DNA of 64,000 bases from Desulfobacula toluolica Tol2. Its GTDB lineage: Bacteria > Desulfobacterota > Desulfobacteria > Desulfobacterales > Desulfobacteraceae. Under the pieces are notes generated by a model. The model did no database searches and was not told the origin of the DNA. It was given only the letters and a program-made list of their open reading frames with translations. Shown here piece by piece: positions 9,402-62,560 of the stretch. The stretch is from assembly GCF_000307105.1 (NCBI RefSeq), contig NC_018645.1, forward strand, positions 4,288,001 to 4,352,000, written 5' to 3'. Made by a program: the position numbers and the translations under genes. Within the stretch, counting starts at the first letter, position 1; each line of letters starts with the position of its first letter.

Positions 9402-9498
9402 TATATAACTGCCACGGGCAGACTTGGTCTTTTATCCATGTTTGCCCACAACAAAGATTGAAAGTCTCTGTATGGATTTTTTAAGACTTTCATATAAA
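9402..9498 (+). repeat. Twin-hairpin repeat, copy A
   Basis: Member of the intergenic family described in the findings. The family's plus orientation runs from ATAACTGCC to CATATAAAAA. Stem 1 is GGGCAGAC against GTTTGCCC, stem 2 is TGAAAGTC against GACTTTCA. It fills most of the gap between the amidotransferase start and flippase 2. Confidence 0.88.
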
Positions 9499-9564
9499 AA
9501 GAACCGTGAACCTATTAGAATTAAATTCCTTTCATCATCTAAACATAAATTCAATTCACAAGCC

Positions 9565-11097
9565 CTAACCAGGAAGCATTTTTAATAATTTAAATAGAAA
9601 AATCCATTTTGAATTTCCATCTGATACTGTTTTAAAAATTTGTTTTTCATCAGGCCTGAAATAATTACAACCAAATTGAATAAAAAAAGCGATTGCAAAT
9701 ATCGAAACTCCGAAAAGAAGTTGATAAGTAATATTGGAAGGAATTATTTTGCTGAGGCTGTATATAAAAACAGAAATTGCCGCCCAAAACAGGCTTATTT
9801 TAATCATAAACAATTCCAATCCTTTAAAACTGGCTTCTTTTCTAACAAAATACCAAATAAAAATATTTTTGGATAAGGTCGCCGTTCCAGTTGCGAACAC
9901 CGCGCCCCATATCCCGAAAAACTTAATTAGAATCAAGTCTGCAACAATATTATACACGGCAAAAATCTTGCTGTAGAGAACGATATCTGCCTTTTCCATT
10001 AGCTGAGCAACTGTGGCAATAGGCAAGGAATTTAAAATGGAAAAAAAAAACATGACACATAGGATGGAAGAATACTCTACAAATTTATTATTTGAGATAA
10101 TGCTGCTAATATAGTCACCGAATATAAATAAAAAGCAACAACATGGGACTGCAAAAAACAAATTTATTTTTACAAGACTTTGAAAAAATTGCGTTAATTT
10201 ATCTTTCTGAGACAACGATGTTCCGATGGCAAAAAATGCCGGTTTAATAACGTCCCTCAGGTAGATTAATGGGAGCAATGATGATATTTGAAGATTGATT
10301 TGAACATAAAAGGAATAAGCCCCGACAGCAACAGGATTTAATAACATAACAATGATAAAATTGTCAAAATTAGCGCTTAAAACCCCCACACCGGTATTAT
10401 TAAAATTATAAAAAAGGGCGTATTTTCCAACTCTTTTTTTCTCATTGCTTGTAATAGAATCAATTGTTCCAGAAGAAAAAGGAATTTTATTATAATATAA
10501 TATTTGAAGCAAGGCAAAAGAAATTAGATAGGCAGACAGGTCGATTATAATTGCATGCCACAGATTTTTATCGTAAATAATGATAAATCCATATCCTATC
10601 GCCTTTATGATCGCAAACAAAAGAGCAATTGGTTTTGAATATTTATGAAGAAAATAAGATGACAAAACGATCTCAAGGAAATTGCGCTGTTGATGCAGAA
10701 CAATAATCAAAGTAAAAAGCATGAAATACGATTTATATTCTGTAATTTTTAAAAAAGGGGCGATTTGCTGCCATAACAATAAAATAAATCCAAGGATTGC
10801 AACATCCGCCACCATCCGAATAACACAGCTTATTTTGAATAAATTATGAGCAATCTTGAATTCTCCCCTATTATAATATTCAGGCATATATCGCAGCAGC
10901 GCATCTCCTATTCCCAAGGATAAAACTGTTCCAATTAGTCCGATGACCGAATAAAGAAGGTTGTAAACTCCGTAGTCAAATTCGGAAAGCGCCCTGACAA
11001 GCAAAACCGTTGCAATAAGCCCACAGCACTGACTTAATGTCTTAAATATTAAAGTATATTTAACAGCGCTGGTTGTTTTTTTAATTTTGTTATACAT
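9565..11097 (-). CDS. Wzx-type polysaccharide flippase, paralogue 2
   Basis: 510 residues from the ATG at 11097, or 511 from a TTG one codon earlier. Multi-spanning MOP-family lipid-linked oligosaccharide flippase, clearly paralogous to the protein at 3652-5187 with collinear motifs over its whole length (KYTLIFKTLSQCCGLIATVLL, EFKIAHNLF, LKITEYKSYFMLFTLII). The start codon overlaps the stop of the upstream kinase gene as TGATG, pointing to translational coupling. With the NRPS and kinase genes just upstream, this copy may serve a different substrate from paralogue 1; that is inference from order alone. Confidence 0.88.
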   Translation of the reverse strand: MYNKIKKTTSAVKYTLIFKTLSQCCGLIATVLLVRALSEFDYGVYNLLYSVIGLIGTVLSLGIGDALLRYMPEYYNRGEFKIAHNLFKISCVIRMVADVAILGFILLLWQQIAPFLKITEYKSYFMLFTLIIVLHQQRNFLEIVLSSYFLHKYSKPIALLFAIIKAIGYGFIIIYDKNLWHAIIIDLSAYLISFALLQILYYNKIPFSSGTIDSITSNEKKRVGKYALFYNFNNTGVGVLSANFDNFIIVMLLNPVAVGAYSFYVQINLQISSLLPLIYLRDVIKPAFFAIGTSLSQKDKLTQFFQSLVKINLFFAVPCCCFLFIFGDYISSIISNNKFVEYSSILCVMFFFSILNSLPIATVAQLMEKADIVLYSKIFAVYNIVADLILIKFFGIWGAVFATGTATLSKNIFIWYFVRKEASFKGLELFMIKISLFWAAISVFIYSLSKIIPSNITYQLLFGVSIFAIAFFIQFGCNYFRPDEKQIFKTVSDGNSKWIFLFKLLKMLPG

Positions 11098-11855
11098 CAA
11101 TTCGGCACACTGTAAGCTTTACATACTTGCGAAATGGAGTCATGCATATCTTTATCTCCACTGATACGATATACGCTTTTACCCTGATCTTCCAATGCGG
11201 TGCTTAACCGCTTCAAAACATTATGACCCGACTCAAATTCCTCCAGCAACTCTTTACTGTTGGTCTGGAATCCGAATGGCAACGGCCGAATTTGCAATCT
11301 CTGCATAAATCGTTCCACACAGATTTTGGGATCGGTCACAACCCAAAACAAATGATTTGAAATAGGGGCCAATTTTGCGTACCTGGTTATCAGTTCATCT
11401 GAAACCGTACTTTCCATGTATGCAAACAAGGTAAAACACCTCTGGGAAAAGGCTTCATCCATAATGACCAGATCAGAATCATCAAGATATTGAGAAATCA
11501 GATGTACTTCTGAAAAAGTTCTTACAATTGTATTCCATATGGATTCTATCAGCAGTTTCGGCAAATTTGACCCTGCGAGCGCTTTTGAAATCAAAGCAAT
11601 CAATTCCAGGTGACGGGAAGAAAAGGTAACAAATTCCGGCAAGATGTATCGTTCCCCCATAAACGGCAACCATATCCGGGAAGGCAAAAGTTTCACCATA
11701 TTTTTAATACGCCCGTCATCCCGCTTTTTAATACATTGTATGATTGCTTCATTTCTATACAAACAATATCGTTGCAACAATTTTAAATGTTTATTTAATG
11801 CTGACGACAATGTCGTCTTACCTGATGCCGGCAGGCCTGCAAATTCTATGTACAT
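11097..11855 (-). CDS. P-loop nucleotide kinase-like protein
   Basis: 252 residues. The Walker A motif FAGLPASGKTTLSSAL at residues 4-20 and a Walker B-like segment LVIMDEAFSQRCF near 130 place it among P-loop kinases, with some resemblance to deoxynucleoside or thymidylate kinase-like proteins found in surface-polysaccharide loci. The C-terminal part (VERFMQRLQIRPLPFG) contains the arginines expected of a lid. Preceded by AAGGAG and 13 bp after the NRPS stop; it overlaps the start of flippase 2, so NRPS, kinase and flippase form one transcription unit. Substrate unknown. Confidence 0.65.
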   Translation of the reverse strand: MYIEFAGLPASGKTTLSSALNKHLKLLQRYCLYRNEAIIQCIKKRDDGRIKNMVKLLPSRIWLPFMGERYILPEFVTFSSRHLELIALISKALAGSNLPKLLIESIWNTIVRTFSEVHLISQYLDDSDLVIMDEAFSQRCFTLFAYMESTVSDELITRYAKLAPISNHLFWVVTDPKICVERFMQRLQIRPLPFGFQTNSKELLEEFESGHNVLKRLSTALEDQGKSVYRISGDKDMHDSISQVCKAYSVPN

Positions 11856-11868: not shown

Positions 11869-14800
11869 TCAATTATAGGCCTCTATTTCTCCGATTATTT
11901 TATTTATCTGTTCCGGCTTAAACCAATCTGAGTGGGTCGTCTTTACATCAATCTTTTTCACCTGGCCTTGGTGATATTTATGAAGCTGTGGAGCATAATC
12001 TTCTTCCCAATTACGAGAATAAAACAACAGCACATTGCCGTAATATGGGATCGGCATATAGGGATTTAATTCGCATGCCCTGTAATAAATGCTTTCCATT
12101 AATCTAAACTGTACTGATTCAGGAACAGGCTTTCCCATCAGGGTGTATAAGCGTTGCTGCAGCCCATCCAATGAAATGTAATAATCATAACACTTGGATA
12201 TAATTTTATTAAAGATATACTCATAATCAAATCGGCGTATTTTATGGAATTGCTTTTTTACAAAAGACAACCCCCTTCTATTCCAGTTTTTTTCAACGGC
12301 AGAGGGTTGCTTTTTCTCCCAATTTTCATCAATTATGACCAGCAACTCTATCTTTTTATTCATATTGGTCAATTGACAGGCAATTTCATGGGCGACAATG
12401 GTATTTTTGCATGATCCGATAATGATATAAGGCCCTGATGGAAAAGCTTTCAGGATATCATCAATACATTTTTGGGCCAGCTGCCAGATATCAAGCAATT
12501 GAGTGCCATTTTGTTCGGAATCATAAAAATGGATAAAAATAGGTGAATGATAAAAGGGATGTCCCTTAAGATCCACTTTTTTATATTTTTGAGCACTGGC
12601 TATGGAATGCCCAATTAAGATAACAGGAGATTTTTTCCCTTGTTTACTGATTATTCTTTGAGATCCGTGCAGGGAATCTTGAATCTTTTTTTCAACTATT
12701 TTTGCAAGTTGCCTTATTGTGGAAGCTTTAAAAACAGCAATTACCGGAATTGAAATATTGAATTTTTTTTCAAGGGCATTGACCAGTTTAATTGAATAAA
12801 GAGAGGAGCCGCCGATATCAAAAAAATTGTCATCCGGGCTTGAAACTTCATAGTTTAATATGCCTTCCCATATGGCTTTCAGCTCTTTTTCATATGGGCC
12901 ATCAAAAAAACCGACTTTTTTATGCTCAAAGGATATTGAATCGGATCGGGGTATTTCCAATGCATTGTAGTCAATTTTACCGGAAGACGTATAGGGAAGA
13001 AAATCGACTGTAATTAATAAAGACGGAACCATATATTCAGGGAGCTTGGATAAAAGCCACTGCTTGAATGCTTTTATAGAAAAATCAGGTTTGCTTTTTG
13101 GATCCAACATTAGAAACGCGGCTGTCTTGATGTTGCCGTCGCACTCTTTTGAAACAGCCACGGCACATTCTGAAACCGAAGGGTGCAGCAAAGCCGTCCT
13201 TTCAATTTCACCCGGCTCAACCCTGAATCCCCTTATTTTTATCTGGCGGTCAATTCTTCCATAAAAGAGGATACCCTCTCCAACGGGCATTTCCACCCTG
13301 TCACCGGTTCTAAAAAAAATTGTCTCTTTGTTGATGTCATTGAGTTTAACAAACGATTTGGCAGTAAGATCTTCACGGTTTAAATATCCTCTTGCCGTCT
13401 GGGTACCCCCTATGCAGAGTTCACCCATGCTTCCGGGTAAAGCCGGTTGTTGAAATTGATTTAATATGCATAAGCTGACATTGGGGAATGGAAGACCAAT
13501 GGATACTTTACCTTTTAATGCTCCAAACTCTGACGAAAGATCCGCCCAGGTTGCCGCAACTGTAGTTTCTGTAGGACCATAGGTGTTAAGCAACCTGACA
13601 TTGGAATTGACTTTGTTGTTCCATTTTTCGACTTTATCGGAATTTGCCTCGTCTCCTCCAATTATTATCAACTTTATATGTTCCGGCAGGATCAAGGTAT
13701 CAATCTCGTCGGCAAGCATATGCCAGTATGATGTAGGAAGATCAAGAACAGTAAGACTGTTATCCCTGCAAAAATCAATAAACTGAGAAGGTGTATGGAC
13801 AACATCTCTGGGTTTCATTACAAGGGTTGCACCTGAAAAGAAAGTAGGAAATATCTCTTCTGCTGATGCATCAAAACTGATGGATGCAAATTGAAGCACC
13901 CTGTCATCGGGTCTAATATCATAAATCTCGCTTGCAGATCGTGTAAAGGCAACCAAAGAACTATGCTCTACCATTACCCCTTTGGGTTTTCCTGTTGATC
14001 CCGACGTATATATGATATATGCCATATTTTCAGGGGTCAGATCTATTTTGGGATTGGCGCTACCCATGTTTTTTATTTCTGGCATCTCTTTATCAAGCAG
14101 AATAACCGCCGCACCCTTTGGGTCTATCCTATGTTCGTGGGTCTTTGTGGTGACAATAATCTCAGGAGCAGAATCATTGATTATATAATTTATTCTTTCA
14201 TCTGGATACCCTGGATCAAGCGGGACATATGCACATCCTGATTTTAATACTCCAAGGATAACCGCAATGAGATCTGCATTCTGCTCAAGGAGAAGAACTA
14301 CTTTTTTTTCAGCCATAGCCCCAAATTTTATTAGATAATGGGCAATTTGATTTGCATATCTGTTTAATTCATCATAGCTTTTACTGTTTTTATGGTCTGT
14401 TACTGCTGTTGTATCTTTGTTTAAGGATGCCTGTATCTCTACGAGATGGTGTATGCAGCTGTCAGGTCTGGTATGAATCTTGTTAGAGTTTAATTTCCGG
14501 GCAATTTTTTTCTTTTCAAGATCCGTTAATATGGACACATCCATGAGTCTTGGATCAACATTTTCAGAGAGTGATTCCAGAAAAGTAGTAAAATTACCCA
14601 ATACTTGTTTTATTATGGCAGGATCAAATTTTCTTCTGTCATACTCTATGGTGGCAGTGAGTTCATCAAGTCCACGGACTGTTAAAAACAAAGATGCGGG
14701 TGTTCTTTCAAACAAAGAGACATTGGAACAGGATATTTTTTCTTTGTAGCCTTCAAGTGCAGCATCAATGGAATGATAGTCATAAGCAAAAAAAATATCA

Positions 14801-17800
14801 AACAGGGGAAAACTTCCCTTAACCTGACTCCATGAATGAATATTTGAAAGGGAAGTATGTTCAAACTCTTTTATTTTGATCCATTCGTTTCTAATTTTGT
14901 GTAAAAATATTGACAGATTCTCTTCAGGATCTATCTGAACTCTTAAGGGAAGCGTATTGATATACAACCCGGTATCATTGGAACTGTTTTTCCTCCAACT
15001 CCTGACAGATCTTGTAGTTCCAAAGACAATATCCTTTTTTCCTGTATAATGGCTTAATAGCACCGCCCATGCCCCCATTAATAACGAGTTCATTGTGACG
15101 GCATTTTTTTCACAGATTTTTTTCAACACAGAAGTTTTGTCAAAGGGAATAAAGGTTTTTTGATTTCCCGTTGTTATGGTAATAGAATATTCTTGTCTTC
15201 TGTTTTCTGTTACAGATCTTTTTTGAATATTAAACGGAAGATCAATTGATTCTGTAAAACCGTTCAATTGTTTTTCCCAGAACGCTCTTGCCGATTCACT
15301 ATTTTGTTTCTTATTCAGCCATCCGATATAATTTTTAAATGATCCTGGCGGGGAAAGTTGTGTATTCGGATTATGGTATATTAAAAAAAGATCTTTTAAT
15401 ATGGAAACCATTGTTCTTCCATCGGCAATGGCATGGTGGAAGCTCCAGACACAGGTGTATTGATTTTCATCTGTTTTTAAAAGAGCTATTCTAAAAAGAG
15501 GTGGTTTTGAAAGAGCAAATCCAAGTCGTCTATCCGCTTGAAGAAATACTTCTATAAATTCTTCTGTTTCAGACTTGGAAGAACTGCTCCAATCATTGAT
15601 TTCAATACTTATTTCATCAATCGGTAAAATATGTTGCCGGGGCTGGTCTAAATTTTTCCAGACAAATCCAAGTCGCATAATTTCATGGTGTTGAATAATT
15701 TTTTGCCATGCTTTCTTAAACCGTTCAAGGTCAATATCCTGGTTAATATCAAACACAATCTGTTCTATATAAATACCGGCACCCTGAGTAGATCTCAAAG
15801 TTTCCATGAGCATCCCATGTTGCATTGGAGAAATGGGATAAGTGTTCATATTCAGGAGGGTGTTTATTTTTGATTCCGGCTGATCAATTGCATTGTCTAT
15901 AATTTTATTAAAATGTTTTGTTACCTGTTTTATCCTGTTTTCAGTAAAAAGATCTGTTCGGTATTCAAACCAGCCGGTTAAACCCGACTCACCCTCATAA
16001 AGTTCAAGGGTTATATCACAGTTTGCTTTCCCCGTATCAACATGTAGATAGTCAGTTTTGGTTTTATACAAATCAAGATGAGGAAAATCCATTGTCTGCA
16101 TCAGAAACATGGATTCAAAAACTTTTTCCCGCTGGCTTGTCTCTTGGCATAATCGATTGATTTTTTGAAAAGGAATATTTTTATATCTGAATATCTTTTC
16201 CAGATTTTTTTTAACATTGTCCAGAAAAAAGCTTAAACTATTATCAATATTGATGATAGTTCTTACCACAAGCGTATTCATTAAAAAACCGATTATTGGT
16301 TCTGTATCAACATTGTCCCTGGCTGCATATGCAATCCCGGTAATTTGATCATTCTGACCGGTCTCGGCAAAAAGAAGAATTTGAAAAAGAGCAAGAAGAA
16401 CAGTAAAAGAGGTTGTACGGTTTTCTATGGCAAGTTTTTTTATTTTATTATATGTGTCGGCATCAATCTTGACCGGGAAACACGCCCCGGTTAATTCCCG
16501 GGAAGATTTTTTACTGTTTTGAGGAAGATCTTTTAAATAAGAGGCAAAAAACGGTCTGGCTGTTTTCCAGTCATGATCAACTTCATAGATCCTGGCTAAA
16601 ATATAATCATGATATGAGACTTCAGGTGTTGATAATTTTAAAGATTCGCCTTTCATAAGGCAATTGTATATTTTGCCGAATTCCTGAGCAAACAACCCTG
16701 CAGACCATCCGTCAAAGATGATGTGGTGAAAAGTAAAACAGACTAAACAACTTGACTCTCCTGTAATTAACAGATCAGTTCTAAAGACAGGGCCTGTTTC
16801 AAGATTGAATTTTTCTTTGATTTTATCAAGAATCCATCGGTTCTCCAGATCATTGTTTGTAAGGCTATCCATTGGTTCAAAAGTATTTTCCGGTTTTACA
16901 CAGGAAATTACAGAAGTTGACACCTCATCACTGCAATGGTTAAGGATATTCTTTATATGATCAACTCGATAATAAAATGATTTACGGTTATCATCGTTCT
17001 CGTTACTAAAATCACCCGCTTGCTTTTGAATTGTAATATCATTTTGTAACAGAAATACGGATTGCAAAGCAATATGTCGTTCTTTTATTATTTCAATGGC
17101 TTGTTCAAAAAAATCATAGTTTAATTTGCCTGTAATTTTATAAACCAGGGGAATGTGATAAACAGATGTGCCAGGATTGATCTGCTCAAACATCCATATT
17201 AAATTTTGATCATCCAGAAGAGGCAGGCCGTCTTTTTTGTTGATTTTATCTTTATTGGACAACGCTTCCCCAAACAAATCTTTCTTTATTTTTTTGTTTG
17301 AATCACCCGTAATAAATCTTGAAAACGCTTTCAGTTGAGAATGCTCAAAAAGAGTGTTTATTTCAATATTTTTTAAGAAAAGCCTGTTTATTCTTGATAC
17401 TATTTTTACCCCGGAAATAGAGTCTCCACCGAGGAGAAGAAAATCATCAGTTCGATATATTGGACTGATACCTAAAAACATCGCCCATATCTCCGCAATT
17501 TTTTCTTCTGTTTTTGTTTGCGGTAATTCTTCTTTCTTTAGAATATTCAGATCTTTTTTTAACATAAGATTTTTCCTGTCTATTTTATCCTGAGAAGTCA
17601 GGGGCATTTTTTCCAAGGGAATAACAACCGATGGTATCATATATTTTGGCAGCTTACTTTTTAAAAAATTGATGAGTTGTTCCTGATCCAGATGAGAATC
17701 AATATAAGCAGTTAATATTTTTCTTTGTGCTTTGTTTTCCTTGAGAACAACTGCAGTTTGAGATATTCCGGGAAACTCCTTGATAACATTCTCAATCTCC

Positions 17801-19068
17801 CATGGTTCAATGCGAAATCCCCTGAGTTTAATCTGAAAATCCTTTCTGCCGCCAAACAGTATATCACCGGTTTTTAATCTGGTTCCAAGATCACCAGTCT
17901 TATATAAAAATCCAGGCAACTTATCTGAAAAAGAATTTTCAAGAAAATTCTTTGCGGATAGAGCATCTTCTCTCAAATACCCGTCAGCAACCTGGATTCC
18001 TGCAATATAAATTTCACCTTTTTCTCCATTTTTTACAGGATTTCCTGATTCATCAAGGAGATAGACTTCTAAATTCTTAACAGGCTTTCCAATGGGAGCA
18101 TTGCCTGGATTGTCCGAATAATCAGGTACCTCATATAATGTGGCACAAATTGTTGATTCGGCAGGTCCATATCCGTTAATGAGGCAAAGGCCTTTAGTAT
18201 TCCTTTTAAGGGCGCATAAAAGACTTTCCGGAATGGGTTCCACCCCTGTTAATATTCGTTTAAAGGAAATTGGATTTTCCAACTGCTTGTCTGCAAGATC
18301 CTTTATCATAAAAGGAGGAATGTATGAGCTTGTAATATTGTTTTCTTTGAGCCATTGGATAAATTTGTCAGCATCCGATCTGATCTGCTGATCCGGAATA
18401 AAAAGCGTTGCACCGGATAATAGAGCTGACCATATTTCATAAACAGAAACATCAAAATTCAAATTTGTCCATAAAGAACTTTTATCCTTAGTGTCAAGCG
18501 GGCTGCGGTGTTGAAAATCCTCGATAAGGTTCATAACAGCTTGATGTTTTACTGGTATGCCTTTTGGTTTGCCTGTAGAACCGGATGTATATATGACATA
18601 CGCTGTAAAATCAGGGTTAATTTCGTCTGACCCTTGAGATTTAACAATATTAAATTTCTCTTCTGATCTGTTTTTAATACCATCAGGGGAATCAAGCAGA
18701 GTGTCTAACACTAATACTTCAATATCTCTATTTTTGAAATTAGATTTATGAGAATCTAACGTAATAATTATATCTGCCTGCGAATGGTCAAGGATCTCCT
18801 CTGTTCGAGACGGGGGATCGTTGATATCCAGGGGAAGATACGCATAACCTGCTTTCAAGACCCCAAGCATCGAAACGATTGCTTCAATGCTTGAAGGCAG
18901 ATACAAGGCAATGATCATGCCGGAGAAAACCTGTTTTGTCTTCAGCAGAACAGCAAGACGGCCAGCAGCAAAATCAATTTCCCTGTAAGTAATTGATTTT
19001 TTATTGTGGACCACTGCTTTATTATCAGGATAGCATTTTACAATTGATGAAAAAATAGAGGGAATCAT
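11869..19068 (-). CDS. Nonribosomal peptide synthetase, A-T-C-C-A-T-TE
   Basis: 2399 residues. Domains in order: adenylation A1 (about 10-510; YVIYTSGSTGKPKG, A10 Lys near 495); carrier T1 (520-590, phosphopantetheine Ser550 in LGGDS); condensation C1 (615-1060, HHIIFDG at 781-787); condensation C2 (1075-1510, HHAIADG at 1211-1217); adenylation A2 (1535-2045, YIIYTSGSTGKPKG, A10 Lys near 2031); carrier T2 (2055-2130, Ser2089 in IGGSS); thioesterase (2145-2399). Starting with A-T implies no acyl starter, and the two carriers suggest a dipeptide or an iterated product. The two adjacent C domains are unusual. By alignment to the GrsA pocket, A2 carries Glu and Asp (DASAEE; VLDLP), hinting at a basic residue; this is tentative. 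The TE has GSCKN where GxSxG is expected. No MbtH-like or phosphopantetheinyl transferase gene is in the window. The ATG has only a weak ribosome binding site. Confidence 0.93.
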   Translation of the reverse strand: MIPSIFSSIVKCYPDNKAVVHNKKSITYREIDFAAGRLAVLLKTKQVFSGMIIALYLPSSIEAIVSMLGVLKAGYAYLPLDINDPPSRTEEILDHSQADIIITLDSHKSNFKNRDIEVLVLDTLLDSPDGIKNRSEEKFNIVKSQGSDEINPDFTAYVIYTSGSTGKPKGIPVKHQAVMNLIEDFQHRSPLDTKDKSSLWTNLNFDVSVYEIWSALLSGATLFIPDQQIRSDADKFIQWLKENNITSSYIPPFMIKDLADKQLENPISFKRILTGVEPIPESLLCALKRNTKGLCLINGYGPAESTICATLYEVPDYSDNPGNAPIGKPVKNLEVYLLDESGNPVKNGEKGEIYIAGIQVADGYLREDALSAKNFLENSFSDKLPGFLYKTGDLGTRLKTGDILFGGRKDFQIKLRGFRIEPWEIENVIKEFPGISQTAVVLKENKAQRKILTAYIDSHLDQEQLINFLKSKLPKYMIPSVVIPLEKMPLTSQDKIDRKNLMLKKDLNILKKEELPQTKTEEKIAEIWAMFLGISPIYRTDDFLLLGGDSISGVKIVSRINRLFLKNIEINTLFEHSQLKAFSRFITGDSNKKIKKDLFGEALSNKDKINKKDGLPLLDDQNLIWMFEQINPGTSVYHIPLVYKITGKLNYDFFEQAIEIIKERHIALQSVFLLQNDITIQKQAGDFSNENDDNRKSFYYRVDHIKNILNHCSDEVSTSVISCVKPENTFEPMDSLTNNDLENRWILDKIKEKFNLETGPVFRTDLLITGESSCLVCFTFHHIIFDGWSAGLFAQEFGKIYNCLMKGESLKLSTPEVSYHDYILARIYEVDHDWKTARPFFASYLKDLPQNSKKSSRELTGACFPVKIDADTYNKIKKLAIENRTTSFTVLLALFQILLFAETGQNDQITGIAYAARDNVDTEPIIGFLMNTLVVRTIINIDNSLSFFLDNVKKNLEKIFRYKNIPFQKINRLCQETSQREKVFESMFLMQTMDFPHLDLYKTKTDYLHVDTGKANCDITLELYEGESGLTGWFEYRTDLFTENRIKQVTKHFNKIIDNAIDQPESKINTLLNMNTYPISPMQHGMLMETLRSTQGAGIYIEQIVFDINQDIDLERFKKAWQKIIQHHEIMRLGFVWKNLDQPRQHILPIDEISIEINDWSSSSKSETEEFIEVFLQADRRLGFALSKPPLFRIALLKTDENQYTCVWSFHHAIADGRTMVSILKDLFLIYHNPNTQLSPPGSFKNYIGWLNKKQNSESARAFWEKQLNGFTESIDLPFNIQKRSVTENRRQEYSITITTGNQKTFIPFDKTSVLKKICEKNAVTMNSLLMGAWAVLLSHYTGKKDIVFGTTRSVRSWRKNSSNDTGLYINTLPLRVQIDPEENLSIFLHKIRNEWIKIKEFEHTSLSNIHSWSQVKGSFPLFDIFFAYDYHSIDAALEGYKEKISCSNVSLFERTPASLFLTVRGLDELTATIEYDRRKFDPAIIKQVLGNFTTFLESLSENVDPRLMDVSILTDLEKKKIARKLNSNKIHTRPDSCIHHLVEIQASLNKDTTAVTDHKNSKSYDELNRYANQIAHYLIKFGAMAEKKVVLLLEQNADLIAVILGVLKSGCAYVPLDPGYPDERINYIINDSAPEIIVTTKTHEHRIDPKGAAVILLDKEMPEIKNMGSANPKIDLTPENMAYIIYTSGSTGKPKGVMVEHSSLVAFTRSASEIYDIRPDDRVLQFASISFDASAEEIFPTFFSGATLVMKPRDVVHTPSQFIDFCRDNSLTVLDLPTSYWHMLADEIDTLILPEHIKLIIIGGDEANSDKVEKWNNKVNSNVRLLNTYGPTETTVAATWADLSSEFGALKGKVSIGLPFPNVSLCILNQFQQPALPGSMGELCIGGTQTARGYLNREDLTAKSFVKLNDINKETIFFRTGDRVEMPVGEGILFYGRIDRQIKIRGFRVEPGEIERTALLHPSVSECAVAVSKECDGNIKTAAFLMLDPKSKPDFSIKAFKQWLLSKLPEYMVPSLLITVDFLPYTSSGKIDYNALEIPRSDSISFEHKKVGFFDGPYEKELKAIWEGILNYEVSSPDDNFFDIGGSSLYSIKLVNALEKKFNISIPVIAVFKASTIRQLAKIVEKKIQDSLHGSQRIISKQGKKSPVILIGHSIASAQKYKKVDLKGHPFYHSPIFIHFYDSEQNGTQLLDIWQLAQKCIDDILKAFPSGPYIIIGSCKNTIVAHEIACQLTNMNKKIELLVIIDENWEKKQPSAVEKNWNRRGLSFVKKQFHKIRRFDYEYIFNKIISKCYDYYISLDGLQQRLYTLMGKPVPESVQFRLMESIYYRACELNPYMPIPYYGNVLLFYSRNWEEDYAPQLHKYHQGQVKKIDVKTTHSDWFKPEQINKIIGEIEAYN

Positions 19069-19100: not shown

Positions 19101-19197
19101 TTTTATAAGAAAGTCACGGCAAATCCAATCGTAACTTTCATGTTTTTTTGTGGCAAACCAAGGGGGAATACCAGGTTTGCCCATGGCAGTTATTAGA
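19101..19197 (-). repeat. Twin-hairpin repeat, copy B
   Basis: Minus-oriented copy just upstream of the NRPS gene. It keeps ATAACTGCC, the stem GGGCAAACC against GGTTTGCC, and TGAAAGTTAC paired with GTGACTTTCT, where the altered base can still pair as G-U. Confidence 0.85.
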
Positions 19198-35490: not shown

Positions 35491-35584
35491 TTTTATATGA
35501 AAGTCTTCAAAAATCCAGACAGTGACTTTCATGTTTTGTTGTGGTCAAATCTGAGCGAAAGACCATGTCTGCCAGCGGCAGTTA
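35491..35584 (-). repeat. Twin-hairpin repeat, copy C
   Basis: Minus-oriented copy at the 3' end of cooT. The TAA inside its ATAACTGCC start is the cooT stop codon. Stem 2 (TGAAAGTC against GACTTTCA) is perfect. Confidence 0.9.
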
Positions 35585-35776
35585 TTGTTTAATATAAACC
35601 TTGTGGTCCACCAATGACAAAGAATGAACATGGCCTTTAATAAATTTTTGTTCGCCAAAGATAGAAACCAGGCGGATACCATCTTCATCCGGCTCAATCT
35701 TGTCAACCGCTTCCATTAACAATGTTTCATCAGATTCGCCGTCATTTCCAAGTAAATATGCATTTGCTTCACACAT
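35582..35776 (-). CDS. cooT: CooT-family small nickel-binding protein
   Basis: 64 residues beginning MCEANAYLL, the signature of CooT-family proteins whose Cys2 binds nickel; later conserved parts are IRLVSIFGEQKFIKGHV and VDHKVYIKQ. CooT is implicated in nickel delivery to carbon monoxide dehydrogenase. No CODH gene is in the window, so its client lies elsewhere or differs. It is paired with a DUF3842 gene upstream. Copies C and D of the twin-hairpin repeat flank it in the same orientation. Confidence 0.85.
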   Translation of the reverse strand: MCEANAYLLGNDGESDETLLMEAVDKIEPDEDGIRLVSIFGEQKFIKGHVHSLSLVDHKVYIKQ

Positions 35777-35799: not shown

Positions 35800-35893
35800 T
35801 TTTATATGAAAGTCTTTAAAAATTTAATCGTGACTTTCAGTTTTCGTTGTGGACAAACCAGGATATGATACCAGGTCTGCCCGTGGCATTTAT
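35800..35893 (-). repeat. Twin-hairpin repeat, copy D
   Basis: Minus-oriented copy between DUF3842 and cooT. The TAA in its ATAAATGCC start is the stop codon of the DUF3842 gene. Stem 1 uses GGGCAGACC against GGTTTGTCC, with G-U pairs. Confidence 0.9.
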
Positions 35894-36315
35894 AAAAAAG
35901 ATAAATGTTTATCCAACAATTCATCCACCAGTTGAGGCAGGGGCAGACCGCTTACCCCTACAATTTCCAGGTTTTCCTGGGTCAGAGGCAGAAGAATTTT
36001 TTTAGCATCGGCAGAACATATGGCTTCCGCCATCTCAGGGGTTACCTCGCCCATCATTGCCTGGGGCATGATAATTCCCACAGGCCCGATAATAGCATCT
36101 GCTTTCCTTACGGTCTGAACAATGGCATTACTGCCGGAAGCCCCTTTGTTTGCCCTTGCTTTCAGCATCTGGGCCGTGGCAATGGCGTTGGTTCCCAGAG
36201 CAAAGACCTCTATTCGTTCTTCAAACCGTTCTTTGAGTTTTTTAATAATTGCAGATCCAATGCCTCCCCCCTGGCCATCTATAACACAAATTTTTTTCTG
36301 GATATTCACTCCCAT
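35890..36315 (-). CDS. DUF3842 family protein
   Basis: 141 residues with a Gly-rich Rossmann-like start (KKICVIDGQGGGIGSAIIK), then FALGTNAIATAQMLKA and IIGPVGIIMPQAMMGEVTP. It matches the DUF3842 family, which has no established function; the opening resembles a nucleotide-binding loop. Its place directly upstream of cooT suggests a shared role in nickel or one-carbon enzyme maturation (inference from adjacency). No clear Shine-Dalgarno sequence precedes the ATG. Confidence 0.8.
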   Translation of the reverse strand: MGVNIQKKICVIDGQGGGIGSAIIKKLKERFEERIEVFALGTNAIATAQMLKARANKGASGSNAIVQTVRKADAIIGPVGIIMPQAMMGEVTPEMAEAICSADAKKILLPLTQENLEIVGVSGLPLPQLVDELLDKHLSFL

Positions 36316-39263: not shown

Positions 39264-39360
39264 ATATAACTGCCATGGGCAGCCTTGGTATTTCAACTTG
39301 ATTTGCCCATAACAAAGATTGAAAGTCTCTGTGTGAATTTTTAAAGACTTTCATATAAAA
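39264..39360 (+). repeat. Twin-hairpin repeat, copy E
   Basis: Plus-oriented, near-consensus copy between the PhaC-like gene and a phasin gene, running from ATAACTGCCATGGGC to TTTCATATAAAA. Stem 2 (TGAAAGTC against GACTTTCA) is perfect. Confidence 0.9.
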
Positions 39361-40153: not shown

Positions 40154-40156
40154 TAA

Positions 40157-40277: not shown

Positions 40278-40306
40278 AGCATCATACTGTGTTTTATTAA
40301 CCGCAG

Positions 40307-40786
40307 ATGATGCTAAAAAACAAGGAAAGCCAATTGCCTGATACCATAACAATTAAAAAGTATCCGAACAGACGGTTGTATAACACAAAAAAAAGTACTT
40401 ACATAACTCTTGAAGATGTTTCAGATCTCATTAAAAAAGGATTCAGAATCCAGGTAGTTGATGTCAACACAGGCAATGACGTCACTTCTATTGTCCTGAC
40501 ACAGATCATCATGAACAAAGCAAAAAAGGACAATGCAATTCTGCCGGTATCCCTGCTTCACCTTGTCATCCAATACGGAGAAAGCCATCTTCATGAATTT
40601 TTCGAAAAATACCTTGAAACAACCATTAAAAATTATCTGGGATATCGAAAACAAATGGATGACCAGATTAATGCATACATGGAAATGGGGATGGATTTTT
40701 CCACCCTGGCAGAAAAAACTTTTAGGAATATGGATCCCATGAATTTTTTTTCCAATTCTCTGAAAAAACAAAAAGAAGAAGATTAA
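40307..40786 (+). CDS. phaR: PhaR, polyhydroxyalkanoate synthesis repressor
   Basis: 159 residues. Residues 12-75 form the PHB_acc_N domain with the signature ITIKKYPNRRLYNTKKSTYI and LEDVSDLIKKGFRIQVVD; a PHB_acc domain follows (LTQIIMN..., LLHLVIQYGESHLHEFFEKYL). PhaR binds both DNA and nascent PHA granules, releasing phasin genes when polymer forms. It is divergent from two phasin-like genes over a region with two palindromes. Confidence 0.93.
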   Translation: MMLKNKESQLPDTITIKKYPNRRLYNTKKSTYITLEDVSDLIKKGFRIQVVDVNTGNDVTSIVLTQIIMNKAKKDNAILPVSLLHLVIQYGESHLHEFFEKYLETTIKNYLGYRKQMDDQINAYMEMGMDFSTLAEKTFRNMDPMNFFSNSLKKQKEED

Positions 40787-40905
40787 TCCAAAATATCATA
40801 CAGTTTTTTCCCACTCGGTAAGAAATAAAAAGAGGATCTTAAAGAAACGACCTTGAGGCCGCATTCATAGATTTAATTTAATTCTGAAACAAAAAGGAGA
40901 GGACA

Positions 40906-41370
40906 ATGATTGGCAAAACCATCGACCAATTAAAAATTGGAGACTCGGATGAATTTACCAAAACGATTTCCGAATCTGATATTTATCTGTTTGCAGGCAT
41001 AACAGGAGATTTGAATCCTGCCCATATTAATGAAGAGTATGCTAAAAACACGTTTTTCAAAGGGCGAATCGCACATGGACTATTTATTGGCGGTTTTGTT
41101 TCAACCGTAATCGGCACAAAACTTCCGGGACCCGGCAGCATTTACAGCGAACAGCAACTCAAGTTTCTGGCTCCCGTACGAATCGGCGATACCATCACAG
41201 CCAGAGTTGAAGTCAAAGAAATCAATATTGAAAAAAATAAAATAACCCTTGAAACAAGCTGTTTTAACCAAAACAAAATTATTGTGGTTGATGGAAAAGC
41301 AATCATCCATCCGCCTAAAGAAAAAATAAAAAAGAACCGCAACACGATCATACCAATCAAACAATTTTAA
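40906..41370 (+). CDS. phaJ: MaoC-like (R)-specific enoyl-CoA hydratase
   Basis: 154 residues, single hotdog domain. The catalytic motif GITGDLNPAHINEEYA holds Asp35 and His40, the dyad of (R)-hydratases, followed by GRIAHGLFIGGFVS and GSIYSEQQLKFLAPVRIGD. PhaJ hydrates trans-2-enoyl-CoA from beta-oxidation to (R)-3-hydroxyacyl-CoA, the substrate of PHA synthase. No phaA or phaB is present in this window, so PhaJ is the visible monomer supply. AGGAGAGG precedes the ATG. Confidence 0.88.
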   Translation: MIGKTIDQLKIGDSDEFTKTISESDIYLFAGITGDLNPAHINEEYAKNTFFKGRIAHGLFIGGFVSTVIGTKLPGPGSIYSEQQLKFLAPVRIGDTITARVEVKEINIEKNKITLETSCFNQNKIIVVDGKAIIHPPKEKIKKNRNTIIPIKQF

Positions 41371-41381
41371 TTGACGATATA

Positions 41382-41419
41382 TTTTTATTTTACCGGCAAA
41401 TGTGATGGTAAAAAAAAAG
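41382..41419. terminator. A/T-rich hairpin after phaJ
   Basis: TTTTTATTTTACC and GGTAAAAAAAAA form an AU-rich stem around an 11-nt loop shortly after the phaJ stop. A possible weak intrinsic terminator. Confidence 0.4.
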
Positions 41420-41514
41420 GATGGGTTCGCCCACACAGCACAATGCGACATTTTGTTTGTTTGAACAATATTTTTTTGACTAACGGTCATGAAAGATCAA
41501 GCTTCCATGGCCGT

Positions 41515-41609
41515 TTTATATGAAAGTCGTCAAAAATTCAAAAAACTACTTTTATGCTTTATTGTGTGCAAACCAAAGTAAAATACCAAGCCTGCCCATA
41601 AAAGTTCTT
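41515..41609 (-). repeat. Twin-hairpin repeat, copy F
   Basis: Minus-oriented, more diverged copy. TATATGAAAGTC and the GGGCAG...TTTGC half remain, while the second arm of stem 2 has changed to CTTTTATG. Confidence 0.75.
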
Positions 41610-41792
41610 ACCTTCTTTCATTGAACAGCAATGATATTTCGTGTATTTACATTTCATGAAAATTTATCCAAACATACCAGATAAAATTCAACTCTCAAAA
41701 AAAACTTTTACAAAGACAACCCATGAACCATTTGTTGATGCTCTGCCAAAGCCTATCATTCAAGTGTACAATACAACACAAAAGTCATATTC

Positions 41793-41890
41793 AAACAACT
41801 GCCATGGACAAAACTGTTATTGCACTTTGTTTTGTCCACAACAAAGATTGAAAGTCACTGTTTAAATGTTTGAAGACTTTCATATAAAAA
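41793..41890 (+). repeat. Twin-hairpin repeat, copy G
   Basis: Plus-oriented copy. Stem 1 is changed on both sides to GGACAAAAC against GTTTTGTCC and still pairs perfectly over 9 bp. This is the clearest compensatory change in the family. Confidence 0.88.
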
Positions 41891-41919
41891 AAAAGATAGA
41901 GGTAAAACATTAAAAAACC

Positions 41920-43122
41920 ATGACAACAGAATTAGCAAAAACACCTGAAAATGAGATTAAAAATAGAATTCACACCCTGAAACAAAAAATGGAAAATAAT
42001 AATATTGAGGCTGTTTTTTTAACGCACAAACCTGATATTTGCTATTTTTCAGGGACATCCCAAGACTGCTACCTTTATATCAACATTGATCGTGATCCGG
42101 TTCTTTTTGTCAAAAGATATTTACCAAGAGCAAGAAAAGAAAGCTGCACAAAAAATATCTTTCAAATTCCATCAATAACTCATATCCCTGAAAAAATAAT
42201 AAATCTCCACTCAAATTTACCCAAAACATGCGGCCTTACCTTTGATGTTGTCCCGGTCAGGGATTTTTATTTTTACCAAAAATTATTTACATCCACTTGT
42301 TTTATTGATTGCACCCCTGTGGTCAATGACTGCAAACAGATTAAATCTGACCATGAAATCAAACAAATGAAAACCGCAGCCAAACTATCTGAAAAAACCT
42401 TTTCTTATATCCAAGAAAACATCAGGCCTGGGATTTCAGAGATGGAATTTTGCGGTATATATGAAACATTTGCACGGAAATTTGGGCATTCCGGCACATT
42501 ATTGACAAGGCATTACCGTGCAGAAGGTTTTCCCTTTCACTTATTGAGCGGTAAAAACGGAGGGGTTGCCGGTGCTGTGGATACGCCCTGCTGCGGGATC
42601 GGAACATCCATTAGCCATCCGTTTGGAGCAGGAGCAAAAATCATAGAAAGAAATGAACCTATTCTTATTGATTTTGGAACCATATTGAATGGGTATCATA
42701 TGGATGAAACCAGGATGTTTGTTTTGGGAGACATGGACCAAAAGGCTATGGACGCTTCAAAGGCTGCCCTGGAAATTCTTTACACGCTTTTATCTCAAAT
42801 GAAGCCGGGTGTTACAATGGGTGATATTTTTGAAAAAGCCATCAAATCCGCTAAAAATCTGGGGTATGAGGAACAATTCTTAGGTCTGCCCGGTATAAAA
42901 TCAAACTTTATTGGACACAGTATCGGAATGGAACTGGTTGAAAGCCCCATTATATCCAAAGGGAACAAGGATATACTAAAACCCGGAATGGTATTTGCTG
43001 TCGAACCTAAATTTATCTTTAAAAATGAGTTTGCAGCCGGTATTGAAAGTGTTATTCAAATCACGAAAAACAGTTCATGTTTTTTGAGTACAACACCCAA
43101 TAAAATTTTTATCTGCAAATAA
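41920..43122 (+). CDS. M24-family Xaa-Pro aminopeptidase-like protein
   Basis: 400 residues: an N-terminal creatinase-like domain (1-140, FLTHKPDICYFSGTSQDCYLY), then the pita-bread metallopeptidase fold. Metal-ligand positions are visible: Asp in PILIDFGTILNGYHMDETRMF (both acidic residues), His in NFIGHSIGMELVE and Glu in VFAVEPKFIF and GIESVIQI. It would cleave N-terminal residues before proline in the cytoplasm. Its place among PHA genes looks incidental. Repeat copy G ends about 30 bp before the start. Confidence 0.87.
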   Translation: MTTELAKTPENEIKNRIHTLKQKMENNNIEAVFLTHKPDICYFSGTSQDCYLYINIDRDPVLFVKRYLPRARKESCTKNIFQIPSITHIPEKIINLHSNLPKTCGLTFDVVPVRDFYFYQKLFTSTCFIDCTPVVNDCKQIKSDHEIKQMKTAAKLSEKTFSYIQENIRPGISEMEFCGIYETFARKFGHSGTLLTRHYRAEGFPFHLLSGKNGGVAGAVDTPCCGIGTSISHPFGAGAKIIERNEPILIDFGTILNGYHMDETRMFVLGDMDQKAMDASKAALEILYTLLSQMKPGVTMGDIFEKAIKSAKNLGYEEQFLGLPGIKSNFIGHSIGMELVESPIISKGNKDILKPGMVFAVEPKFIFKNEFAAGIESVIQITKNSSCFLSTTPNKIFICK

Positions 43123-43250: not shown

Positions 43251-43448
43251 TTATTTATATTCTCTTTGTTTTAAATCACTGAAAAGAGGACAAATAGTTG
43301 GGGGGCCTTCCAGTGTCTGCCCCTCCATTAATGTTTTTCCCCAATTTTCCGCAGTGATCTTTTGAGCTTCCTGTTGTGACTCTACACCAATAACTTTAAA
43401 CACAAGCAAACCATGATCCTGGCTTTCCATTTTTGTGTAATAAATCAC
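43251..43448 (-). CDS. Small hypothetical protein, 65 residues
   Basis: I do not recognise this protein. It starts MIYYTKMESQDHGLLVFKVIG, continues with a charged helix (ESQQEAQKITAENWGKTL) and ends with PPTICPLFSDLKQREYK; no signal peptide or membrane segment. GGAGGAAAGC is close before the ATG, which supports translation. It stands alone between the peptidase hairpin and two tandem repeat copies. Function unknown. Confidence 0.6.
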   Translation of the reverse strand: MIYYTKMESQDHGLLVFKVIGVESQQEAQKITAENWGKTLMEGQTLEGPPTICPLFSDLKQREYK

Positions 43449-43514
43449 TTGCTTTCCTCCTTAAATTTAAATGTTCATTTTCTGTTTCATATAATATAAA
43501 CTATTGAATTGTAT

Positions 43515-43598
43515 AAAAATCCTGCCAACCCCAATCATGACTTCCATTTTTTATTATGGCAATTCTTAACAAAAGACCACGTCTGTAATGGCAGTTCA
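43515..43598 (-). repeat. Twin-hairpin repeat, copy H (degenerate)
   Basis: Minus-oriented and decayed, in tandem with copy I. Recognisable parts are TGAACTGCC, GGTCTTTTG and GGAAGTCATGATTGG; both stems are damaged. Confidence 0.55.
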
Positions 43599-43687
43599 TA
43601 TACAAGTCTTCAAAAATTTTAACAGTGACTTTCATTCTTTGTTGTGGGCAAACCCATATAAAATAACAGGTCTGCCATGACAGTTAT
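43597..43687 (-). repeat. Twin-hairpin repeat, copy I
   Basis: Minus-oriented, well preserved. Its ATAACTG begins directly after the TGA stop of the PilZ gene. Head-to-tail with copy H. Confidence 0.85.
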
Positions 43688-44182
43688 TCAGATAACATTT
43701 CCGATCATAAATCTGTTAAGAGTTTTTTTTAAGGCTTTGCATGGCAATTTTGAAACAAAGGTAAAACAATTCAGGCACAGACACAAAGATTCATCGGTTT
43801 TTACGATCTCTTGTGTCGAGGAATTCGCACACAATTCACAACAAAGATGAGATTTTTCAACAGCTTCTTTTTTAACTATTTTTGCCTTACCAATCCTTTT
43901 CACACCAACCTTGTAACTGAAATCTGCATCTGTTTTGACACACCATATTACCTGGGCAGTACAAGCGTCATAGGGTTTAAGTGATTCAAAACCGGGAGAA
44001 GAATCCTTGATTTTGATAAAAAAATACTCCCCGTTTAAAAACATCTTATCTGATACAAAATTCATCCCATTCATACTAATATTATACAGCACGGCTTTAT
44101 GATACGAATCGTCAAGAGCTTTTGCATAAAGAATGGGTATATTTATATTTTTACGGACTTCAAAACGTCTGTTTCTTTCCAT
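43688..44182 (-). CDS. PilZ-domain protein with C-terminal cysteine cluster
   Basis: 164 residues from an ATG preceded by AGGAG; a longer frame from 44284 lacks a site. The PilZ domain spans 1-110, with the c-di-GMP motif arginines at the start (ERNRRFEVRKN) and the N-x-S-x-x-G part as NISMNGM. The last 50 residues hold cysteines in pairs (LCCELC...SLCLCLNC) that look like a zinc ribbon. It is probably a cytoplasmic c-di-GMP receptor; the target may be motility, polysaccharide or PHA regulation, none of which the sequence decides. A 64-bp conserved block lies upstream. Confidence 0.8.
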   Translation of the reverse strand: MERNRRFEVRKNINIPILYAKALDDSYHKAVLYNISMNGMNFVSDKMFLNGEYFFIKIKDSSPGFESLKPYDACTAQVIWCVKTDADFSYKVGVKRIGKAKIVKKEAVEKSHLCCELCANSSTQEIVKTDESLCLCLNCFTFVSKLPCKALKKTLNRFMIGNVI

Positions 44183-46809: not shown

Positions 46810-46868
46810 AATAACTTCTACGGCCAGACCAGACTGGATCTTTCGCCCTGATTTACCCACAAAAAAAA
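46810..46868 (+). repeat. Twin-hairpin repeat, copy J (remnant)
   Basis: ATAACTTCTACGGCCAGAC...GATTTACCCACAA resembles the first half of the plus-oriented repeat; stem 2 is missing. Weak but in the usual intergenic position, between phaC and phaE. Confidence 0.4.
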
Positions 46869-46953
46869 AGAAGATGGGCAAAAATACAAACAATTTTGTT
46901 CAAGCTATAAAATTTGAGATCCTTACTGTTCATTAAAAGATTGACAGCGTTGT

Positions 46954-57414: not shown

Positions 57415-57570
57415 CCGAGCGCTGTCTCCTTTTCTAAATTCGTAATTTTTATGTCCCATCCCTTATCATTGCCTCCTGTCAAGATCAACATGAAAAATCA
57501 TCTGGATTTATAATATTGAACAGTATCCATCCTAAAAATAATTTTACTTTGCGTACATCTTCATTTTTTA

Positions 57571-57666
57571 CAACTACTACGGGCAGACTTGGCCTTTCTC
57601 ATTGGTTTGCCCATAACAAAACATAAAAGTCGCTGTTTGAATTTTTAAAGGCTTTCATACATAAAA
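57571..57666 (+). repeat. Twin-hairpin repeat, copy K
   Basis: Plus-oriented copy in the region between the divergent SH3/anchor and archease genes. Stem 2 is altered to AAAAGTC against GGCTTTC, keeping a G-U pair. Confidence 0.85.
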
Positions 57667-61739: not shown

Positions 61740-62460
61740 TCTGATTGATCACCTCGCCTGCAATGGTGAGACCGAAAACTCCGGGAACCCAGGATACGGT
61801 TCCAATGGGGGGTCTTGACCGGCCGTGATCCTTTAGTGCATCAACAGCATCTTCAGGGCGAAAGGCTTGCTTGTTCAAAGGTTTTTCAATAGAATAAACC
61901 GCTCTTATCCCTTCATAAAGCCCCCGCCTGTGAAGGCGCTGCCTGACCACCCTTGCCAAAGGACAGACACAGGTTTCACTGATATCTCCGGTTTTTATCA
62001 TGGAGACATCGGTTCTTCCTCCGGCCCCCATGCTGGAAACCGCGGCAAGATCCATCTGTCTTGCTTCGACCAGCAGGTTTATCTTTGAATTAAGACCGTC
62101 TATGGCATCCACCACAACATCAATATCTTTGAATAACAGATCCTCAAGACTTTGGGCATTGACAAATGAACTGTGGATCTGAACACGGCAATGCGGATTA
62201 ATATCTTTTACCCGTTCACCGGCAATGACGGCTTTTTGTCTGCCAATAGTGGAATGCAATGCAAACAGCTGACGGTTGATATTTGTTGCATCCACCCTGT
62301 CAAAATCAATGAGATGCAAATTTCCAACCCCTGCACGGGCAAGGGCTTCGGTTGCAAACGACCCCACTGCCCCCAGGCCGAAAACCGCCACGGTTGACTG
62401 TTGTATCTTTTCCATTGCCAATGCCCCGAGAAGCTGTCGGGTTCGAGCAAACTGATCCAT
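61723..62460 (-). CDS. tcdA: tRNA threonylcarbamoyladenosine dehydratase (TcdA)
   Basis: 245 residues of the ThiF/E1 superfamily: nucleotide loop VAVFGLGAVGSFATEALARAG, DFDRVDATNINRQL, VVDAIDGLNSK and SSMGAGGRTD match TcdA/YgdL, which cyclises t6A37 in tRNAs to ct6A using ATP. A ThiF/MoeB role is less likely because no sulfur-carrier gene is adjacent. Ends inside the fadD coding region on the opposite strand. Confidence 0.88.
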   Translation of the reverse strand: MDQFARTRQLLGALAMEKIQQSTVAVFGLGAVGSFATEALARAGVGNLHLIDFDRVDATNINRQLFALHSTIGRQKAVIAGERVKDINPHCRVQIHSSFVNAQSLEDLLFKDIDVVVDAIDGLNSKINLLVEARQMDLAAVSSMGAGGRTDVSMIKTGDISETCVCPLARVVRQRLHRRGLYEGIRAVYSIEKPLNKQAFRPEDAVDALKDHGRSRPPIGTVSWVPGVFGLTIAGEVINQITQSS

Positions 62461-62493
62461 TATGTGTCCTTTTATTATTTGTCTTTTTTTCCC

Positions 62494-62560
62494 TGTAACT
62501 GCAATGGCAGACCGGTCATTTCACCCAAGGGGTTGTGTACAACAAGAAATGAATGTCAAA
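62494..62560 (+). repeat. Twin-hairpin repeat, copy M (remnant)
   Basis: GTAACTGCAATGGCAGAC and TGTACAACAAGAAATGAATGTC resemble the first two thirds of a plus-oriented copy; stem 2 is decayed. Lies between tcdA and tatD. Confidence 0.45.

Follow-up and report, generated by a model that had tools for sequence, protein, structure and literature searches.

What is a block of about 90 bases that recurs a dozen times along one stretch of a bacterial chromosome, and how might it have spread there? The stretch is a 64,000-base window (bases 4288001-4352000) of the single 5,197,905-base contig that makes up the 5.2-Mb genome of Desulfobacula toluolica Tol2, and the block, hereafter the unit, consists of two hairpins joined by a conserved linker. 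The reading that we prefer, with belief and doubt about evenly balanced, is that the repeat is a mobile but non-autonomous piece of DNA, which would travel as a folded single strand handled by a trans-acting enzyme.

A two-hairpin unit between genes

The unit follows the plan ATAAC–hairpin 1–CACAACAAA–hairpin 2 (TGAAAG…CTTTCA)–TATAA and is ~90 bases long. Copies were scored with two covariance models: R1, built on 37 copies from this genome, nine of them from the window, and R2, built on 52 cross-species units. The window copies, with the parts of the best one, are listed below in window coordinates.

9404..9499, plus strand: unit, best window copy (R1 133 bits, R2 92.8 bits)
9399..9408, plus strand: left target-like motif TTTnnWATAA before the first unit base (flank profile of 86 anchored copies)
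9409..9421, plus strand: hairpin H0, CTGCC-ACG-GGCAG, alternative to H1 (fold; pair changes across species)
9416..9447, plus strand: hairpin H1, GGGCAGAC...GTTTGCCC (fold; pair changes across species)
9448..9458, plus strand: conserved inter-hairpin linker ACAACAAAGAT (own-copy and cross-species alignments)
9459..9492, plus strand: hairpin H2, TGAAAGTC...GACTTTCA (fold; pair changes across species)
9493..9497, plus strand: right end TATAA (profile of 86 copies)
19101..19194, minus strand: unit (R1 89.7 bits, R2 67.4)
35491..35586, minus strand: unit (R1 114.5 bits, R2 79.1)
35800..35894, minus strand: unit (R1 108.9 bits, R2 77.1)
39265..39360, plus strand: unit (R1 125.5 bits, R2 87.0)
41514..41609, minus strand: unit (R1 87.2 bits, R2 64.9)
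41794..41889, plus strand: unit (R1 108.4 bits, R2 85.6)
43509..43587, minus strand: decayed unit, head to tail with the 43594..43688 unit (R1 with filters off, 23.4 bits)
43594..43688, minus strand: unit whose right end joins the left end of its decayed 43509..43587 neighbour (R1 94.2 bits, R2 64.0)
46810..46912, plus strand: decayed unit between two genes with domains related to polyhydroxyalkanoate (PHA) synthase (R1 28.0 bits, R2 23.4)
57569..57664, plus strand: unit (R1 106.4 bits, R2 60.1)
62494..62590, plus strand: decayed unit (R1 42.2 bits, R2 28.9)

A preliminary description of the window had counted about 12 copies in both orientations, those at 46810 and 62494 decayed. Scoring with R1 confirmed count and orientations, with coordinates agreeing within a few bases: 11 copies were matched at E ≤1.8e-4, nine of which hold by construction, being among the 37 training copies, and a search of 43400-43800 with filters off recovered the copy at 43515 (43509-43587, minus strand, 23.4 bits, E 1.4e-5). 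The latter is likewise decayed, so that three decayed copies are present, all of them outside the R1 training set. A profile from the R1 alignment gave 12 window matches above 25 bits (25 to 109), the best score across 20 dinucleotide shuffles being 7.3 bits, and BLAST with one copy as query, which is independent of R1, returned at least 41 genome matches at E ≤1e-9 (40 of 265 first-look candidates scored). Covariance-model searches of the genome and of relatives, which the same description had proposed, recovered the family in both.

The genome-wide R1 scan found at least 150 places, and all 150 that were scored had E <1e-13. In an even sample fixed before searching (39 evenly spaced stretches of 20 kb, 780 kb in all), 41 matches reached 38 bits, from which ~270 good copies are expected in the genome; at 10 per 64 kb, the window is ~3 times denser than the sample. 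End patterns matched at 165 places for the left end (≤2 mismatches; control 3) and at 228 for the right end (≤1 mismatch; control 22). The claim that copies always lie between genes nearly holds: among the 41 sampled and 10 window copies of at least 38 bits, three of 51 overlap an open reading frame (ORF), as called by a simple script, by ≥50 nt, as compared with 4442 of 5000 random placements.

Unit edges were read from an anchored set comprising 86 of 97 distinct copies, 11 having been dropped when an end was not found. The core, CTGCC...TTTCAT, measures 85 bp in 47 of these copies, 86 bp in 11 and 101-103 bp in 12, and those of the last class that were examined possess a longer hairpin 1 loop. 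A ~102-bp subfamily (loci L074-L083) carries ~17 extra bases in this loop, which could form an inner hairpin (TGGCCA…TGGTCA). Both of the separate stems named at the outset are present, and the short left-end hairpin H0 competes with H1; the two are mutually exclusive, as they use the same middle strand. The ends, ATAACTGCC and CTTTCATATAA, are not complementary; there are thus no terminal inverted repeats, which bears out the view that this is no normal miniature inverted-repeat transposable element (MITE). This genome also contains a second family, alike in plan but with different stems (ATAACGGCCATGGCAGATCACTCTGCCACAACAAATAATGAAAG...CTTTCATATAAA), and in head-to-tail arrays, some of which mix both families, adjoining units share one ATAA or ATAAA. 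At one locus (L310, ~3499-3560), an inverted left end (…GGTATGCCCTTAGCAGTTAT) stands in place of the right half of a unit, which suggests recombination between two units or inversion of one.

Target motif and empty sites

The 86 anchored copies are preceded by TTTnnWATAA, the final AA of which belonged to both anchors, and are followed by ATAAA and then A-rich DNA; a similar profile lies left of 107 units in other genomes. The left motif is similar to the unit's own right end, TTTCATATAA. A called ORF stops exactly at the left TAA in 7 of 51 copies (9 of 51 with slack), the figure for intergenic ATAA sites being 136 of 2711 (strict p 0.015). Elsewhere, among 85 testable left ends of units in other genomes, 21 close a frame of at least 100 codons, as compared with 97 of 3580 ATAA sites of all kinds. 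No variable target duplication was seen among 72 good copies: the left 4-mer departs from ATAA in 17 of them (in four it is TAAA, apparently through a shift of register by one base), and the same 4-mer stands on the right in 0 of the 17.

Local comparison placed four congener units at sites whose neighbourhood recurs in this genome with no unit in it, two of them with clear edges; this count omits L152/L310, where a unit stands between the same genes in both genomes, and a further matched gene pair, L149/L103. At the first clear site (L154 of genome G013, compared with the empty L090), a frame ends in TAG and the unit begins at the next base, the empty site having TAA and then the same ribosome-binding region (frames checked). 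At the second (L142 of genome G005, compared with the empty L096), the unit follows CTAA, and the empty site reads TTAA two codons before the stop of its frame; the L142 frame reads on into the unit and stays open for 340 codons, versus 327 at L096. A unit lying two codons before a gene's stop, as at L142 (~37-1057), is a possible source of new protein tails. Synteny around an M24 peptidase was tried and dropped, as in 13 congener loci only the peptidase gene itself, of 12 window genes tested, was matched and R1 gave three weak matches (E 0.07 to 0.95).

Stem pairing between species and within the genome

Across the 52 distinct cross-species units, 89.0% of the 774 cells of H1 and H2 are paired (shuffles 76.0%; slid versions 35 to 51%), 93 cells have changed on both sides (shuffles 35.6), and the covariation score is 0.287 (shuffles 0.085). 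The TGAAAG/CTTTCA pairs of hairpin 2 are biased, because the pattern by which most units were collected fixed those letters; pairs 70-104 and 71-103 of hairpin 2 are free of it, as is most of hairpin 1, the outer pairs of which touch the fixed linker. For H0, 74.3% of cells are paired across species (shuffles 63.5%), and its variable pair occurs as UA 12, GC 8, AU 7 and CG 5 times, pair-type counts not being above shuffles.

A different picture is obtained within the genome, from the 65 copies, of 133 distinct, that align without gaps. Among their 1040 stem cells, 123 are broken (27 of them at one polymorphic pair), 37 are kept by a one-sided change and 10 by a two-sided change. RNAalifold on own copies found H0 and H2, with no two-sided change. 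We read these cell counts as pairing that was maintained during the family's spread, settled copies giving no evidence of repair; since pairing is kept between species and mostly broken by changes among resident copies, structure seems to matter for spreading. Of the earlier proposal of a structured RNA element, the structure is upheld by the cross-species pairing, and an RNA role for each copy is disfavoured by the mostly breaking resident changes. More generally, a structure that serves spreading can be distinguished from one that serves the host by setting between-species stem changes against within-genome stem decay. On the top strand, H1 has 30 G.U and 24 A.C, H2 has 10 and 2, and H0 has 2 and 23. 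Such counts hint at which strand folds; with H0 opposite to H1 and H2, they do not settle it.

A possible route of movement and the search for its enzyme

The route that we favour would begin with a trans-acting enzyme, most likely an HUH-type single-strand transposase, recognising the folded top strand and cutting after the left ATAA and after the right ATAA. The ends would then be joined, giving a junction TTTCATATAA|CNGCC that is identical to the joint seen in arrays, and the joined piece would be pasted behind another TTTnnWATAA. A trans-acting enzyme on folded single-stranded DNA is the most economical explanation, as it covers at once the kept hairpins and the target, the sharing of junctions in arrays and the missing inverted repeats. 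With unit, target and empty sites defined and the enzyme missing, the family offers a clear-cut case in which to test the movement of orphan hairpin repeats.

A series of results weighs against this route. At the two clear empty sites, the CTGCC..ATAA cut scores 219.5 versus 222.5 for the best cut, and 141 versus 145; at L154/L090 the best cuts are equal in length but lie 1 to 6 bases further left, and at L142/L096 they are one base longer, so that the edges are fixed only within a few bases. The remaining two sites, L155/L318 and L137/L024, align poorly and leave the edges unfixed (131.5 versus 139.5; 91 versus 98), and a fixed TAA duplication cannot be told from the TAA of the unit. Replichore bias, which would be expected of such elements, has a p of 0.02 to 0.17 depending on the assumed origin, and the even sample shows none. 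In the stems of the 52 units, seven pairs have any two-sided change, which is not above shuffles (6.5), and own-copy stems diverge less from their consensus (8.7%) than do loops (24% and 17%), which could reflect some constraint on resident copies. The ends of insertion sequences (ISs) of the IS200/IS605 kind, moreover, usually resemble each other, and H1 and H2 are unlike each other.

Further points on the same side come from the search for the enzyme. No autonomous form was found among 219 linker sites in the DNA examined, an exact right end lying within 130 nt in 188; of the other 31 sites, 20 have a left end, and their right ends are decayed, cut off or mismatched. The ORFs around unpaired left ends at 170004 and 385082 do not have the look of transposases, no Pfam search of them having been made. 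The unit occurs in 0 of 29 congener Y1 transposase loci, inspected with flanks of up to 1.5 kb and drawn from 66 congener Y1 places (69 places were listed in all), and Y1 presence does not track abundance, genome G017 (78% complete) having 39 units and only a 42-aa Y1 fragment.

One far right end met in the linker-site check lies 2.1 kb off, with a 402-codon open frame between; among the 219 sites, neither a unit enclosing a gene nor an autonomous copy carrying cargo inside its hairpin 2 loop was seen. This genome has three Y1 gene matches at two loci, none inside a unit-bounded element; the 301-aa Y1 frame (973888-974214) has no unit within ~2.4 kb or more on either side, and a broken Y1 gene with a unit ~165 bp downstream (R1 match 2545116-2545223) was rejected as parent, as what appears by eye to be its own IS200-type end hairpin lies between. 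A loose scan of the 29 congener loci gave one weak right-end match (L288). The linked Y1 transposase of the repetitive extragenic palindrome (REP) type, for which a check had been suggested, was thus not found flanked by units at the two loci here or the 29 in congeners, and no parent IS sharing the unit's ends was seen in ~1.1 Mb of this genome or in the relatives' loci examined.

Alternative explanations

If the unit were moved in trans by an enzyme of another class, such as a site-specific recombinase or a DDE transposase, TAA or ATAA would be a fixed short target and the hairpins would be recognition sites, in folded or double-stranded DNA. We consider this unlikely. It is consistent with insertion after a fixed motif, with the ATAA that stands at either edge, with the arrays and with the lack of Y1 linkage at the 29 congener loci, but the two ends are not inverted repeats, and two-sided changes in both stems suggest that a folded strand is read. 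A resident candidate, an IS91-like element with a Y2 transposase (nine copies here with a 372-aa frame), was rejected as parent because, in the eight of nine copies examined, its ends (TGTTCAAGTAAGCC... and ...CCTTTATTTGTT) do not resemble the unit. Copies of this 2.4-kb element lie at L345-L351 (genome ~2.36-2.44 Mb, 3.07 Mb and 3.62 Mb), and several adjoin 120-bp repeats (AACGCTTGGGTAACGGGC...) that recur 92-98% alike and could be attC-like sites of a chromosomal integron; attC sites are recognised by RYYYAAC/GTTRRRY core sites together with cassette ORFs.

Less probable again is a functional RNA element (a 3'-UTR stabiliser, a processing site or a protein-binding RNA), amplified because its resident copies help the host. 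Such a role would fit left ends at stop codons and own-copy stems that vary less than loops, but 123 broken against 10 two-sided cells in those same stems argues against it. Among 102 units placed in other genomes, two co-directional neighbours run in the unit's sense in 46 cases and against it in 22 (p 0.005); a TAA target would by itself yield such a bias, and this genome has none (9 versus 11). The excess of G.U over A.C on the top strand of H1 and H2, 39 to 17 without the outermost H1 pair, likewise points to RNA, but drops to 27 versus 17 (p 0.17) without one column and is reversed in H0. No Pfam family, among the top 25 of 251, was found in more than three of 131 neighbour ORFs searched in other genomes, out of 197 (19 of the first 150, mostly long ones, and the last 47 were left out). 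A match to a known Rfam family, which the preliminary description had named as evidence against itself, did not appear at gathering score in the window or in 15 relatives' loci; matches in 39200-42000 were weak and far below the cut-off.

A retro-element, its RNA copied back to DNA near gene ends by a trans-acting reverse transcriptase, would suit insertion at gene ends and the sense bias in other genomes, but we regard it as very improbable, as the target motif and arrays need no RNA step and no sense bias is present in this genome.

Relation to known repeat families

Published descriptions define REPs as hairpins bearing a GTAG or CGTC tag, their size being put at 20-40 bp (PMC3733652) or 21-65 nt (PMC6006769), and the termini of GTAG REPs often supply the TAG stop codon of flanking ORFs (PMC3733652), which parallels the TAA found here. 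No word beginning with Desulfo stands in the main text of either paper; D. alkenivorans occurs once in PMC3733652, in GTAG family 14, which is a different tag class. As there described, REPs, bacterial interspersed mosaic elements (BIMEs) and REPINs resemble the unit in hundreds of intergenic copies, complementary stem changes, stop-codon-supplying termini and clusters (PMC3733652, PMC6006769); the unit differs in its ~90 bp, its two unlike hairpins with a conserved linker, its ATAAC/TATAA ends, its head-to-tail arrays and in that no linked REP-associated tyrosine transposase (RAYT) was found. By eye, the consensus of 37 own and 52 cross-species units lacks GTAG or CGTC at either hairpin foot, and the short single palindrome of REPs (20-40 bp) has its place taken by a two-hairpin core, 85 bp in 47 of 86 anchored copies. 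High copy number and intergenic placement are shared with REPs; a RAYT or Y1 gene flanked by the repeat, as in a REPtron, was not seen at the 29 congener Y1 loci or the two here. The earlier label 'REP/BIME-like' is therefore apt for behaviour (copy number, intergenic placement, left ends that sometimes form a stop codon, arrays), but the definition of a REP does not fit the unit, with no GTAG/CGTC tag and no unit-flanked REP-type transposase found. Atypical high-copy hairpins near a Y1 gene are also described for Class 3 TnpA_Y1 genes, where they carry a CnGA foot and flank their own gene (PMC6006769); here, no unit-flanked Y1 gene was found.

That no named family was known is in keeping with our literature search, which turned up no description of this repeat. 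Miniature elements derived from IS200/IS605, such as PATEs, have no inverted repeats, no variable target duplication, an AT-rich left target and subterminal hairpins. The unit is similar in lacking inverted repeats and variable duplication, in its fixed left target motif (its edges being ambiguous by a few bases) and in subterminal hairpins at both ends; it differs in having two hairpins of unrelated sequence and in that the DNA examined yielded no parent IS with such ends. As a miniature derivative of IS91/ISCR it would share ends with the resident Y2 element, and it does not (eight of nine copies). Classical MITEs have inverted termini and target duplications; here, the ends are not complementary and none of the 17 deviating left 4-mers recurs on the right. 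ERIC, BOX, RUP and Correia elements, going by their descriptions and with no sequence-level comparison, are alike in being ~100 bp, intergenic and without an ORF.

Distribution in other genomes

An exact scan for linker plus hairpin 2 in one genome per species (84,980 species) returned at least 120 stretches. Titles among the matches listed include Desulfobacter, Desulfotignum, Desulfobacula, Desulfamplus, Desulfonema, Desulfobulbaceae and Desulfocapsaceae, together with desulfobacterial or deltaproteobacterial bins and one Nitrospirae bin (L251), the label of which may be a binning error. At E 0.001, R2 gave 119, 130 and at least 150 matches in Desulfamplus genomes, 110 in Desulfonema magnum, 98 in Desulfobacter postgatei SZUA-453, 23 in the Nitrospirae bin and 1 to 7 in other genomes, these counts resting on rough E-values and on matches not inspected singly. 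The unit thus constitutes a large part of the intergenic repeats of several sulfate reducers (98 to at least 150 matches per genome). That 25 of 25 genomes were R2-positive follows by construction, and G346, G358 and G359 appear to duplicate the assemblies G005, G013 and G003. A genus survey found a match in 19 of 26 genomes, with counts of 1 to at least 150, and an even draw over the phylum with R2 found 6 of 297 positive (this genome included in both); the phylum draw undercounts, owing to strict filters and to 14 candidates being scored per genome. Loci behind several of its matches have the same plan with the linker CACAACGAA. A pattern search of 2.9 million viral contigs and a BLAST search of plasmids and phages gave no match. 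At nine loci of Desulfotignum and related bins (L160, L165, L169, L172, L200, L205, L217, L240 and L272), the hairpin 2 loop contains a AGCTGTTAGCTTTTAGC-type repeat of variable length.

The unit belongs to a superfamily whose members occur in sulfate reducers of several groups and in a single bin labelled Nitrospirae, and the suggestion that it is typical of this lineage was too narrow, several Desulfobacterota groups being involved. A further-reaching proposal, which we advance tentatively and with more doubt than belief, is that this is an unnamed superfamily of mobile repeats in several Desulfobacterota families and perhaps a second phylum, its two-hairpin unit being read by an enzyme outside the REP, IS200/IS605 and IS91 systems and landing behind TAA, with stop codons as harmless sites.

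Neighbouring genes in the window

Two ORFs of 511 aa lie on the minus strand of the window at 3652-5187 and 9565-11100, 5913 bases apart, and share stretches of 61 nt and 138 nt that a repeat finder scored as 70-75% alike. The ORF at 9565-11100 matches polysaccharide transporter models, and the pair looks like a duplicated flippase gene within a surface polysaccharide cluster. A single very long ORF of 2399 aa occupies 11869-19068, also on the minus strand.

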